Source: Magnetospirillum sp. (GTDB lineage: Bacteria > Pseudomonadota > Alphaproteobacteria > Rhodospirillales > Magnetospirillaceae). Taken from it: a DNA stretch of 45,879 nucleotides. This document shows, one piece after another, positions 1,216 through 10,329 of this stretch. Within the stretch, counting starts at the first letter, position 1; each line of letters opens with the position of its first letter. Position numbers and translations under genes: made by a program. The stretch lies in contig JACRFY010000219.1 of assembly GCA_016212565.1 (NCBI GenBank), positions 1-45,879 of the forward strand, in the 5' to 3' direction. The notes beneath the pieces were generated by a model. That model had not been told where the DNA came from, searched no databases, and saw only the letters and a program-made list of their open reading frames with translations.

Positions 1216-1384
1216 CGGCGTCCTCCGTCAAGGATAGCCGTCTCTTGTGGACGGTCGAGAGCCCCTTGCGGCCAGTATTGCTCAGGTCCTCACCTGAGGA
1301 AAGTCTAATTTGTCCGGACTGACGGCGGAGCCCCTGCGGCGATAACGACTTGACCGGTTGCCGTCCTCGGCCCCAATTGAGGAT

Positions 1385-3784
1385 ATGCACCAGGAGCTGC
1401 CCGTCATGACCCATCAATCCGCTGCCCTTGCCTCCCTCACCCTGCCGGTGCGCGGCATGACCTGCGCCGCCTGTTCGACGCGGTTGGAAAAGGTCCTGGC
1501 GAAGGTCGAGGGGGTCGGGGAGGCGACGGTGTCGCTGGCTGCCGAGCGTGCCGACCTCCGCTACGACCCCAGCCGCACCGACCCGCAGCATCTGGCCGCT
1601 GCGGTGGTGCGGGCCGGCTTCCAGGTTCCGGCCGAGACCGTCGAAATGGCGATTTCCGGCATGACCTGCGCCGCCTGTTCGACGCGGTTGGAAAAGGTCC
1701 TGGGCCGGCTGGCGGGCGTTCAGGTCGCCGCGGTCAATCTCGCCGCCAATACGGCGCGGGTCGAGGTTCTGCCGGGCACGTCGGGGGCTGCCGATCTGGT
1801 CGCGGCGGTGCAGAAGGCCGGATTCTCCGCCCGCATCCTGACCGGGGTGGACGAGCAATGGGAGCGGGAGGAGGCGGAGTATGCCCGCGCTCTGCGTCGG
1901 CAGATTCTGCGGCTGGCGATTGCGGCGCTGCTGTCGTTGCCGCTGATCGCGCAGATGGGCTTCGCCATGGCCGGCCTGCATTGGACGCTGCCGCCGCTGG
2001 CGCAAATGGCCTTGGCGACACCGGTCCAGTTCTGGATCGGCGCGCGTTTCTACCAAGGCGCCTGGATGTCGTTACGCGGCGGGGTCGGCAATATGGACGT
2101 GCTGGTGGTGCTGGGAACCACCGCCGCCTATGGCCTGTCCGTCTGGCATGTCGTTGCCGGGACCGCCGGCCACGACACCCTCTACTTCGAGGGTGCGGCG
2201 GTGGTGATCACCCTGGTGCTGCTGGGCAAGGTGCTGGAGAGCAAGGCCAAGCGCTCGGCGGCCGGGGCAATCCGGGCGCTGATGAAGCTGCGTCCCGATG
2301 TGGCGCGGGTGGAACGCGACGGCCGTTTGGTCGAGGTGCCGGCGGCCGCCGTGGCGGTGGGGGACGTGGTGGTGGTGCGCCCGGGCGAGCGGCTGCCGGT
2401 CGACGGCGTGGTTGCCGAAGGCATCAGCCAACTCGACGAATCGCTGGTCACCGGCGATAGCCTGCCGGTCACCAAGGCGGCGGGCGACGAGGTGGAGGCG
2501 GGGGCGGTCAACGGCGACGGCATGATGTAGTTCGCCGCCACCCGCGTCGGCGCCGACTCTACCATCAACCGGATTATCCGTCTGGTTCAGGGCGCCCAGG
2601 GCTCGAAGTCCCCGGTGCAGCGGCTGGTCGACCGCATCTCGGCGGTATTCGTGCCGGTGGTGACGGCGATTGCCGTTCTGACCTTCCTCGGCTGGGCGTT
2701 GGCCGGAGACCTGGAGACTGCCTTCGTCGCCGCCGTCTCGGTGCTGGTGATCGCCTGTCCGTGTGCGCTGGGATTGGCGACGCCGACCGGGATCATGGTC
2801 GGGACGGGAATTGCCGCCCGCCACGGTATCCTGATCAAGGATGCCGAAGCGTTGGAGCGAGCCCATCACGTCGGCGTGGTGGTGTTCGACAAGACCGGCA
2901 CCCTGACCGAGGGACATCCGGCGGTCGTCGCGGTGGAGGGCGATGCCGATTTGCTGCTGCTGGCCGCTTCGGCTCAACAAGGCAGCGAGCATCCGCTCGC
3001 CCGTGCGGTGCTGACGGCGGCGGCGGGCCTGACCCTGCATCCGGTTTCGGCCTTTACCAGTCTACCCGGCCGCGGCTTGGTCGCCGAGGTTGACGGTCGC
3101 GCTTTGACCATCGGTTCGCCCCGTTTGATGGCCGAGCGGGGCGTCGTTGCCGGCGCCCTGGCCGACGTGGCCGCCGCCGAGGAAGGCAGAGGGCGAACGG
3201 TGATGTGGGTCGCCGAAGGCGCGCGCATGCTCGGCTTGATCGCCGTCGCCGATCCGGTCAAGCCGTCCGCGGCTGCGGCGGTGGCCGGGTTGGCGGCCAT
3301 GGGGGTCGAATCGGTCATGCTCACCGGCGACAACCGGCGTGCCGCCGCGGCGGTGGCGGCTTCGGTGGGGATCGCCCGCGTCATCGCCGAGGTGCTTCCC
3401 GAGGATAAGGCCGCAGCGGTGGCGGCCCTGAGGGCCGAGGGGCGGGTGGTGGCGATGGTCGGCGACGGGATCAACGATGCCCCGGCCCTGGCGGCGGCCG
3501 ATGTCGGCCTGGCGATGGGAACCGGCACCGACGTTGCCATGCAGGCGGCCGGCATCACCCTGGTGAAAGGCGATCCCGCCCTGTTGCCGGCGGCGCTGCG
3601 TGTCTCGCGTGCCACCACCGCCAAGATTCGACAGAATCTTTTTTGGGCCTTCGCTTACAACGTTGTTGCGATCCCCGCGGCGGCCCTGGGGTTTCTCACC
3701 CCGGTGATTGCCGGAGCGGCAATGGCCTTCTCGTCCGTGTCGGTGGTCTCCAACGCCCTGTTGCTGCGACGCTGGCGGCCGTGA
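1385..3784 (+). pseudogene. copA: Copper-translocating P1B-type ATPase interrupted by an in-frame TAG at 2528-2530
   Basis: Two HMA domains (GMTCAACS twice), CPC motif ([15 protein letters not shown]), DKTGTLTEG and [16 protein letters not shown]. The ORFs 1358..2530 and 2615..3784 are in the same frame and are separated only by the TAG. Confidence 0.8.
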
Positions 3785-7654: not shown

Positions 7655-8197
7655 TCAGAGCGGCGGCGTCGTCTTGGCAATCACCTGCACCCGCTTGCGT
7701 AGTGAGCACGAGAAGGCGAGCATGAAGCGAAGCGCCTCTTGGGTTTCCGGCTTGGCCATCATGCGCATGGTGCCAAACAGGCCGCCGCCGGACCCGGGAA
7801 TGGCGCACTGGTCGAGTGCGTCTTCCATCGCGCCCTTCGCTTCGTGGGCGATGGTGGCGAGGTCCTCGGTGCCGAGGTTGTTGGCCATGTGCTCGATGAA
7901 CGAGAACGCCCGGTCGACCATGCTGTCGCTGAGCGTCGAGCGCAGGGCATGGATCATGTGGACGGTATCGATCGCCGTTTGCAGCACGCCGGTGCGCTGC
8001 ATGGTGCCAATGGCTTCCAGAAGGGTGGAGACGCCCTCCTTGATGTCGGGATCGTTGAGACGATCGACGACCTCAAGGGCATTGGCCGCGGTGATGGTCA
8101 TGCGCTCGACCATCGAGTCGGACATGGCCTGGGTCACCGCCTCGCCAACCCGAGAGAACTCGGAGGCCATGGGGGAAATACGGGGAATGTCGGTCAT
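7655..8197 (-). CDS. DUF1641 family protein
   Basis: Helical protein (GVSTLLEAIGTMQRTGVLQTAIDTVHMIHALRSTL) of the type commonly encoded next to SQR-like flavoproteins. Start at 8197 (MTDIPRISP). Confidence 0.7.
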   Translation of the reverse strand: MTDIPRISPMASEFSRVGEAVTQAMSDSMVERMTITAANALEVVDRLNDPDIKEGVSTLLEAIGTMQRTGVLQTAIDTVHMIHALRSTLSDSMVDRAFSFIEHMANNLGTEDLATIAHEAKGAMEDALDQCAIPGSGGGLFGTMRMMAKPETQEALRFMLAFSCSLRKRVQVIAKTTPPL

Positions 8198-8208
8198 TCC
8201 TGCCTCCC

Positions 8209-9348
8209 CTACAGAAGGCCGCGGGCGGACAGCCAGTACAGGCGGTTGTAAGCCAGCTTGAACCAGTGGACCATCTGCGACGGCGGGCCGGGATTCGGCG
8301 GCGTGGTGTAGTTGAACCACACATAGGTGCCGGAGCTGAGGCCGGTTTCGATGAAGCAGAACACCTTGCCGTCGTAATCCCGGGCCATGCAGCCTTCCTG
8401 GATCAGCGTCGACAGATTGTCGATCAGCACGTCGGCCTCGAAGTGGGCGGTCGAGCCGGCCTTCGAGATCGGAATGTTGGTGGTGTCGCCGACGACGAAG
8501 ACGTTGGTCGAGCCGTCGCGGTGCAGGGTCTTGGTGTTGGTCGGCACCCAGCCGCCCTTGCCCAGGCCCGAATCTTCGATCACCTGCTGGCCCTGGTGGG
8601 GCGGGATGGTGATCAGCAGGTCGAACGGCAGCTCGACGCCCTCCATCGACTTGATGGTCTTCGAGGCGGGATCGACCGATTCGGTGTTGAAGAAGGTCTC
8701 GTACTTGATGCCGAGGCGATCCATCTCCGGCTTGGCCCAATGCGCAACCGGCTCCAGCGCGTGCAGGCGACCGATGGGATAGGTGTAGGTGAGCTCGGTC
8801 TTGTCCCACAGTCCCTTGGCCTTCAGGTGCTCGTAGAGCATGAAGGTGACTTCCAGCGGCGCCACCGGGCACTTGTGCGGAGCGTTGACGTTGACGACGA
8901 TCTTGCCGCCCTGGAAGCTGCCGAGCGCGTCGCGCAGCTTGCGGGCACCTTCGATGTCGTAAAACCAGTGGCCGGCTTCCTTCATGCCCGGGATGTTCTG
9001 CGGCATGATGCGCGATCCGGTCGCCAGGACCAGATAGTCATAGCGGAAGGTGCGGCCGCCATTGGTGGTCACCTGATTCTTCTCGACGTCGATATGCTTG
9101 GCAGGATCGACGAAAAAGTTGATGCGGCGGTCGAGGACGCGGCGCTGATCGCGATAGAGTTCCTGCTCGCGCATGCGGCCGAAGGGAATATACAGCAGAC
9201 CCGGCTGGTACATGTGGGTCTCGGTGGTGCCGAGCATGGTGATGTTGACCGCACCGCTGCGCAGCTCGTTGCCGAGCTGACGGCACAGGCCGTTTGCCAC
9301 AATGGTGCCGGCCAAGCCGCCACCGACGATGAGTACCGTCTTCGACAT
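8209..9348 (-). CDS. FAD-dependent pyridine nucleotide-disulfide oxidoreductase, sulfide:quinone oxidoreductase-like
   Basis: VLIVGGGLAGTIVANGL dinucleotide-binding motif, YDYLVLATGSR, HKCPVAPLEVTFML and VFVVGDTTNIPISKAGSTAHFEADV. Confidence 0.8.
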   Translation of the reverse strand: MSKTVLIVGGGLAGTIVANGLCRQLGNELRSGAVNITMLGTTETHMYQPGLLYIPFGRMREQELYRDQRRVLDRRINFFVDPAKHIDVEKNQVTTNGGRTFRYDYLVLATGSRIMPQNIPGMKEAGHWFYDIEGARKLRDALGSFQGGKIVVNVNAPHKCPVAPLEVTFMLYEHLKAKGLWDKTELTYTYPIGRLHALEPVAHWAKPEMDRLGIKYETFFNTESVDPASKTIKSMEGVELPFDLLITIPPHQGQQVIEDSGLGKGGWVPTNTKTLHRDGSTNVFVVGDTTNIPISKAGSTAHFEADVLIDNLSTLIQEGCMARDYDGKVFCFIETGLSSGTYVWFNYTTPPNPGPPSQMVHWFKLAYNRLYWLSARGLL

Positions 9349-9441
9349 CGCTACTGCCTCCCTTTGGTTTCGTTCATTAATTGTTTTGCCGCCTCTCGAC
9401 AGCCTTTGGGGACGCCGGCCAGCGGCGTCCCATCACGCCCC

Positions 9442-9672
9442 CTACTTGGCCTTCTTGATGACCACCGACCAATAGCCGTCGTGCTCGACGGTGCCGACGT
9501 AGGTATGGCCCACCTTGTTGACCCAGGCGGGGATATCGGTGACGGAGCCCTTGTCAGAGGAGAGCACCTCCACCTCGTCGCCCAACTGCGCCAGCTTGAG
9601 CGCAGCGATGAGTTCCATCAAGGGGCCGGGGCAAAAGGCGCCGCGGGCATCGATGGTCTGGCGGTCGGCCAT
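9442..9672 (-). CDS. TusA-like sulfurtransferase
   Basis: IDARGAFCPGPLMELIAALK, with the conserved CPxP motif. Confidence 0.85.
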   Translation of the reverse strand: MADRQTIDARGAFCPGPLMELIAALKLAQLGDEVEVLSSDKGSVTDIPAWVNKVGHTYVGTVEHDGYWSVVIKKAK

Positions 9673-9699
9673 GGTCGTATCCTTCTCGTCTCGATCGCA

Positions 9700-10101
9700 T
9701 CAAAAGGTGATCAGCTCGCCGGCTTCGGCGTCGCTGAGGAATTTTGCCAGCCCGAGGGGGCCGTCGAACAATCCTTCGGTGAGGTGAGTGTCGCACTCCC
9801 AATGCTTCAGGTCGAGCACCATCGAGCACGCCCATACCTTCATCTCGCCCAACAACTTGCCCTGTTCGAACAGTTCGACTGCATCGGGGACTTTGGCGGT
9901 CTTGAACAATTCATGGAAATGACCGCCGTGATAGCGTTCGGCCGCGGTCTTGCCGCGCTCGAAGGCGAGCACGGCATTCATCGACACGAAAACTTCAACG
10001 GGACGGTCCGACACTGCGGCCACCGAGGCGACCATGGCAGCGAGCTGGATCTTCTCGTGCTCACCGGAGCACAACATGATGAAAAGAGGCTTGGAAGCCA
10101 T
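9700..10101 (-). CDS. DsrE/DsrF-like sulfur carrier protein
   Basis: Short DsrE-fold protein: LFIMLCSGEHEKIQLAAMVASVAAVSDRPVEVFVSMNAVLAF...VWACSMVLDL. Confidence 0.75.
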   Translation of the reverse strand: MASKPLFIMLCSGEHEKIQLAAMVASVAAVSDRPVEVFVSMNAVLAFERGKTAAERYHGGHFHELFKTAKVPDAVELFEQGKLLGEMKVWACSMVLDLKHWECDTHLTEGLFDGPLGLAKFLSDAEAGELITF

Positions 10102-10160
10102 GGTGAGTGCCCCTGCTGGGAAATCGCTGGATGAGAAGGCGCTTACCTTCGCAGGGCATT

Positions 10161-10190
10161 ATATACACCCCCAGGGGGGGGCGCACGCAA
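10161..10190 (-). promoter_or_regulatory. Promoter/operator upstream of the DsrE operon: TATAAT plus C5-A-G8 palindromic tract
   Basis: Minus strand reads CGCCCCCCCCTGGGGGTGTATATAATG. It contains a perfect TATAAT adjoining a CCCCC/GGGGG palindrome, about 60 nt upstream of the dsrE-like start. Confidence 0.45.
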
Positions 10191-10257: not shown

Positions 10258-10296
10258 ATAAAAATCGAGGGGGAACAATACATCATTCCCCCTCGA
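10258..10296 (-). terminator. Rho-independent terminator for the Pal-like lipoprotein gene
   Basis: Perfect 11-bp inverted repeat TCGAGGGGGAA/TTCCCCCTCGA with a 10-nt loop, followed on the minus strand by TTTTTATTGC. Confidence 0.85.
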
Positions 10297-10329
10297 CCAA
10301 GGCTCTTCCGGACAGGATGTTGAGCGCGA

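Follow-up and report, generated by a model that had tools for sequence, protein, structure and literature searches.

Sulfide:quinone oxidoreductases (SQRs) are usually monotopic proteins that have no partner subunit. In the reverse Dsr (rDsr) pathway of the Allochromatium vinosum type, a DsrEFH/TusA relay accompanies the Dsr proteins. To our knowledge, the archaeon Metallosphaera cuprina has no rDsr pathway. One published account places an SQR gene beside tusA and a dsrE gene in this organism, in a 'sulfur island' with the order sqr-tusA-dsrE4 (Mcup_1722-1724; PMC4175335). A requirement for an accessory protein is known from a different quinone-reducing enzyme, as the formate dehydrogenase ForC needs ForE to reduce quinone (PMC8808070).

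With regard to regulation, most CsoR-RcnR proteins bind pseudo-palindromes that contain an unbroken run of four or more G or C residues, and the CsoR site of M. tuberculosis overlaps both the -10 and the -35 elements (PMC10318464). An operator of this kind, read by a CsoR/CstR-like persulfide-sensing repressor, had been proposed for the promoter of a sulfur-trafficking operon in a Magnetospirillum sp. (the original prediction). The four genes of this operon form a conserved set for oxidising sulfide and passing on the sulfur, and this set accompanies the rDsr pathway in magnetospirilla and their relatives. As sulfide-oxidation modules go, the operon is ordinary but well conserved, and its promoter is both real and specific to it.

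Operon layout and gene products

The operon lies in a window of 45,879 nt (the whole stretch of DNA analysed; contig JACRFY010000219.1 of assembly GCA_016212565.1), and the source genome is a 308-contig draft of 4.0 Mb that is 91.8% complete. Consecutive minus-strand open reading frames (ORFs; Table 1) encode DsrE-like, TusA-like, SQR-like and DUF1641 proteins in that order, as originally predicted, and the Pfam and PDB matches agree with this assignment. The gene upstream of the operon in the window is pal, and because a terminator-like stem-loop closes pal, the operon is very probably transcribed separately. Elsewhere in the window (1358-3784, plus strand) there is a copper-type P-ATPase frame with heavy-metal-binding domains that is broken by an in-frame TAG (2528-2530). 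Its two ORFs, 1358-2530 and 2615-3784, share a common frame, so that the gene is a pseudogene unless the TAG is a sequencing error.

Table 1. Features of the operon, its promoter region and an unlinked candidate regulator (positions in the window unless a contig is named)
Feature	Position	Strand	Remarks
DUF1641 protein	7655-8197	minus	180 aa; related to YjlC, more weakly to ForE1
SQR-like flavoprotein (sulfide:quinone oxidoreductase-like)	8209-9348	minus	379 aa
TusA sulfur carrier	9442-9672	minus	76 aa; CPGP motif with C14
DsrE-like sulfurtransferase	9700-10101	minus	133 aa; weak Pfam match, PDB 2QS7 match
GAAGGTAAGCGCCTTC, conserved element just downstream of -10	10135-10150	minus	
Conserved -10 region TATATAAT	10158-10165	minus	
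C5-A-G8 tract	10168-10181	plus-strand reading	in -35/-10 spacer; no conservation across orthologous promoters
-35-like TTGCGT	10185-10190	minus	TTGC without variation across 15 distinct promoters
Intrinsic-terminator-like stem-loop with T tail	10263-10298	minus	behind pal; parts operon from pal
SqrR/HlyU-like ArsR protein, candidate persulfide sensor	contig C251, L087 4996-5376	minus	adjoins ParA-like gene

The TusA product matches Pfam TusA (PF01206, 2.1e-21) and, with the sequence FCPGPLM, carries both the domain and the CPxP motif of the family. The DsrE-like protein reaches the Pfam gathering score for neither DrsE_2 (0.003; 18.0 bits versus 25) nor DsrE (0.07; 13.8 bits versus 22.7), and from its sequence we regard it as a divergent DsrE relative. 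It matches PDB 2QS7 at 8.5e-05, and C91 (in WACSMV), the single cysteine invariant in 11 orthologues, aligns with the 2QS7 cysteine, as expected of a DsrE active-site cysteine. Liu et al. name the 2QS7 protein of S. solfataricus DsrE2B (PMC4175335).

The SQR-like protein matches Pfam Pyr_redox_2 (8.3e-16) and reaches the cut-off of no curated SQR model, the nearest being SQR_III_seleno (5.7e-101; 338 bits versus a cut-off of 525), which places it in an SQR-like clade without a subtype. This nearest model describes a selenoprotein subtype; the clade found here carries cysteines instead. Human SQOR is the best PDB sequence match (1.4e-25), and a Foldseek search with the structure model (mean pLDDT 69, the C-terminal third being of low confidence) places SQRs on top, followed by NDH-2 enzymes; the FAD-binding fold with two dinucleotide-binding domains is thus closest to that of SQRs. 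C160 and C331, the only cysteines invariant across 12 orthologues, align with the cysteines in KCAGAP and SCPLVT of human SQOR, so that the pair of redox cysteines is present. The C-terminal stretch HWFKLAYNRLYWLSA.GLL is likewise invariant in the orthologue alignment. A literature search returned no biochemistry on this SQR clade.

The DUF1641 protein matches PF07849 at 6.3e-07 (29.6 bits, above the cut-off of 21), and its profile matches the NDH-2 membrane coupling protein (1.8e-05), YjlC (2e-05) and ForE1 (0.019). HucM was considered as a further relative and set aside, as there is no Huc chain among the profile matches. The AlphaFold model of the DUF1641 protein (pLDDT 46.5) was not usable; for YjlC a crosslink-based model of its complex with YjlD exists (PDB 9a63). 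From the YjlC and ForE1 profile matches, the need of ForC for ForE in quinone reduction and the 9a63 complex, we propose that DUF1641 may be the membrane or quinone partner of the SQR-like protein. A literature search found no direct report of DUF1641 together with SQR.

Conservation and association with dsr genes

Orthologues of the SQR-like protein, with identities of 53-87%, occur in 54 of 199 related genomes, the source genome being counted. Carriers include Paramagnetospirillum marisnigri, P. caucaseum, P. kuznetsovii, Magnetospirillum sulfuroxidans, M. fulvum, Magnetovibrio blakemorei and Roseospirillum parvum, together with MAGs labelled Gammaproteobacteria, Magnetococcales and Hyphomicrobiales. 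Gene context was inspected in 40 relatives. The order DsrE-TusA-SQR-DUF1641 is preserved in most orthologous loci and the genes are adjacent in nearly all; across 80 named loci, TusA is present in 79, DUF1641 in 74 and the DsrE-like gene in 66.

A dsrA gene scoring above the curated cut-off is present in 51 of the 54 carriers versus 38 of the 145 non-carriers (Fisher p = 2e-19, a statistic that ignores shared ancestry). Two of the three carriers that lack dsrA are incomplete drafts, and the other (G098) is 99% complete. The source genome itself has, on contig C296, one locus with dsrA, B, E, F, H, C, M, K, L, J, O and P, in which dsrA was recognized by a model (1.3e-160) and the remaining genes by reading order and sequence. 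The genome therefore holds dsrAB together with dsrEFH, dsrC and dsrL, the combination that we took to define the rDsr pathway, and this set, with DsrL and DsrEFH, is that of sulfur oxidisers. The adjacency of the four genes in nearly all orthologous loci and the strong co-occurrence with dsrA bear out the proposal that this is a sulfur-trafficking or sulfide-oxidation operon.

In four relatives (L064, L065, L067 and L068) tusA-sqr-DUF1641 lies just downstream of dsrL-J-O(-P) and the DsrE-like gene is absent; in at least one of them a gene that is dsrN-like by sequence also precedes the three genes. Embedding in a dsr locus and possession of a separate DsrE-like gene seem to be mutually exclusive. 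The absence of this gene from the embedded loci agrees with the idea that, within the relay, the DsrE-like protein would matter where the tusA-sqr-DUF1641 module stands alone.

A conserved promoter private to the operon

The minus-strand promoter reads TTGCGT-GCGCCCCCCCCTGGGGGTG-TATATAAT-GCCCTGC-GAAGGTAAGCGCCTTC, in which the -35-like hexamer is 18 nt from GTATAT and 19 nt from TATATA. Operons of the same family share a composite of CTTGCG, 18-19 nt, TATATAAT, 7 nt and GAAGGTAAG with near-fixed spacing. Allowing at most two mismatches, TATATAAT-N7-GAAGGTAAG has exactly one match per genome in 17 of 18 genomes, always upstream of this operon, and the reversed control has no match in those genomes. 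The inverted repeat GAA-N10-TTC is completed at the same position in 13 of the 19 promoters that carry the element. The fixed spacing of GAAGGTAAG relative to the -10 region suggests a constraint at the DNA level, and a function of this kind beside the transcription start is the simplest inference from the sequences. The GAAGGTAAGCGCCTTC segment is a candidate for either a true operator, formed by the GAA-N10-TTC repeat, or an initially transcribed element.

A regulon that shares the GAAGGTAAG element was considered and rejected, the composite being found at this operon alone. GAAGGTAAGNNCNTTC has one other match in the source genome, with one mismatch, and no composite is apparent by eye upstream of dsrA in that genome. 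An RNA element in the promoter or 5′-UTR was also rejected, as there is no Rfam match and the hairpin is no better than shuffled sequences (z = -0.28). Several relatives (L024-L026, L003 and L007) have a SurA/PpiD-type PPIase gene as divergent neighbour at the place where the window has pal. About 100-180 nt upstream of dsrE in these relatives, the strand of the PPIase gene carries a conserved TTGCGGCCCCCGCCCCCCCCTCTTATGATG, which points to a promoter whose C-rich spacer is conserved.

The C5-A-G8 tract

The C5-A-G8 tract and the TATAAT (minus strand, 10163-10158) that drew attention to this promoter are both present, with the tract 4 nt upstream of TATAAT. The tract is real and occurs at chance frequency, with no significant excess: the 4.0-Mb genome holds seven C5NG5 sites and five sites of the reversed control pattern, and the window holds a single C5NG5 site, where a first-order Markov simulation predicts 0.375. 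Its G8 is the sole run of at least eight G or C in the window, and in a 308-contig draft the length of such a homopolymer could be wrong by one base.

Comparison across orthologous operons shows that the tract is not conserved, an outcome that the original prediction had itself named as its refutation. C5-N0-2-G5 occurs within 150 nt upstream in none of the 66 named orthologous loci with a DsrE-like gene, and no C/G tract is present at the promoter in about 30 operons of related genomes; one relative has CCCCCCTGGGGG at -203, off the promoter. Among same-family operons the spacer varies at the position of the tract except for a conserved CC pair, and several relatives carry AAAAACCCTGGAATCTGTG there. 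The expected A/T-rich flanks on both sides are not found either, since only one side, TATATACA, is A/T-rich and the G side is flanked by the GC-rich CGCACGC.

Candidate regulators

The earlier observation that the window has no CsoR-family gene extends to the whole draft, in which no PF02583 gene was found; at 91.8% completeness this absence is likely rather than certain (the same search gave matches in 6 of 14 control genomes). CsoR is present in 13 of the 54 genomes with an SQR orthologue versus 35 of the 145 without (odds ratio 1.0 over 199 genomes).

The genome does encode an ArsR protein, on contig C251, which scores 89 bits with the curated BigR model, under its cut-off of 155. Its C50 and C116 are 66 residues apart, the same spacing as C41 and C107 of SqrR. 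Among solved structures, HlyU entries match it best; next come entries 6o8k-6o8o, which carry only an ArsR family label and which we take to be SqrR structures. The SqrR half-site, ATTC-N8-GAAT, is absent from the operon promoter. The SqrR-like protein, whose gene is unlinked to the operon, is a better candidate for a persulfide sensor than CsoR.

Proposed role of the operon and alternatives

Our main reading, to which we give a probability of roughly 0.75, is that the operon encodes a module for sulfide oxidation and for relay of the sulfur into rDsr, that it has its own conserved promoter and that the C/G tract is neutral. The SQR-like flavoprotein would oxidise sulfide at its FAD/two-cysteine site and deliver the electrons to quinone, with the DUF1641 protein as a putative membrane or quinone-coupling partner. 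The DsrE-like protein and TusA would then take up the sulfane sulfur and hand it on to DsrEFH, DsrC and DsrAB, which are encoded elsewhere in the genome. Transcription would proceed from the operon's own promoter, and a dedicated regulator, if any, would most likely act at the GAAGGTAAG/GAA-N10-TTC element beside the -10 region. Gene content, conservation, active-site cysteines, dsrA co-occurrence, the conserved promoter and the lack of conservation of the tract are direct observations on which this reading is built; we infer which way the sulfur flows, what DUF1641 does and any regulation.

In a rival reading the operon works independently of Dsr, either to detoxify sulfide or to traffic sulfur in the cytoplasm (tRNA thiolation being one example). 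TusA has housekeeping roles, and three operon-bearing genomes, among them the 99% complete G098, have no dsrA; the score of the SQR-like protein, 338 versus 525 bits at the nearest curated SQR model, also weakens the main reading. However, the presence of dsrA in 51/54 carriers versus 38/145 non-carriers and the location of the genes within dsr loci in some relatives make a Dsr-independent role distinctly unlikely. Within the rDsr-feeding module, DUF1641 may be a dedicated quinone- or membrane-coupling subunit, so that a two-subunit SQR would pass sulfane sulfur to the co-encoded DsrE/TusA relay for rDsr. We advance this part tentatively, at slightly less than even odds. The invariant C-terminal helix of the SQR-like protein could suffice as an anchor.

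Three accounts of the promoter can be weighed against the same observations. The tract overlaps the promoter spacer, as a CsoR/CstR-family operator for persulfide-sensing repression would, yet it is missing from the 66 named orthologous promoters and those of about 30 relatives, its G-side flank is GC-rich, its motif has chance frequency, the genome lacks a CsoR-family gene and CsoR presence is independent of the operon. We consequently reject this operator, which is highly improbable, and regard the C/G tract as neutral spacer sequence that a single genome has by chance. Persulfide control by the unlinked SqrR/BigR/HlyU-type ArsR repressor, acting at the GAAGGTAAG/GAA-N10-TTC element, would make use of an element conserved at one position after -10 and of a protein with SqrR-like cysteine spacing and HlyU as its best solved relatives. 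It is nonetheless rather unlikely, given an unlinked gene, a BigR score of 89 versus 155 bits, the missing half-site and a composite confined to this operon, and hence no supporting regulon. The promoter could instead be constitutive or under a sigma factor or general respiratory regulator, with GAAGGTAAG as an initially transcribed or 5′-UTR element rather than an operator. The -35/-10-like elements are conserved and of housekeeping type, no linked regulator gene is recognised among the conserved neighbours, and GAAGG...CCUUC can pair as a short 5′-UTR hairpin; against this, the hairpin energy (no better than shuffles) leaves RNA structure unsupported in this genome and the exact spacing to -10 suggests a constraint on DNA. 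This last account has nearly, though not quite, an even chance of being correct.

For rDsr-based sulfur oxidisers such as magnetospirilla, the rDsr-feeding module points to one particular origin of the sulfane sulfur that TusA and DsrEFH receive. A false regulatory lead is removed, and testable ones take its place in the operon-private promoter element and the DUF1641-SQR pairing. This pairing points to a quinone-coupling role for DUF1641, which, if true, would be a general adaptor that links formate, NADH and sulfide dehydrogenases to the quinone pool.

Comparison with known systems

CsoR/CstR operators place a C-tract/G-tract over the promoter, as is seen here, but the Magnetospirillum tract is not conserved, has no regulator in the genome and is A/T-rich on one flank only. 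The SQR-like protein shares the two-dinucleotide-binding FAD fold and the two redox cysteines with human SQOR and the Aquifex and Acidithiobacillus SQRs, and differs from solved SQRs in its identity of about 20%, its lack of a curated subtype and its DUF1641 neighbour. YjlC and ForE resemble the DUF1641 protein in a core near GL.G..R.L..P..Q and in being encoded with a quinone-reducing enzyme; that enzyme is NDH-2 for YjlC and a formate dehydrogenase for ForE, whereas here it is an SQR-like flavoprotein and the partnership is putative.

The M. cuprina island (PMC4175335) resembles the operon in that a sulfur oxidiser co-encodes SQR, TusA and a DsrE protein. It differs in being archaeal and in its gene order, and the passage that describes it mentions no DUF1641 gene. 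The A. vinosum-type system is similar in that the source genome has dsrABEFHCMKLJOP and that some relatives join tusA-sqr-DUF1641 to the dsr locus. Unlike that type, the Magnetospirillum module stands apart from dsr, with its own DsrE-like protein and its own promoter.
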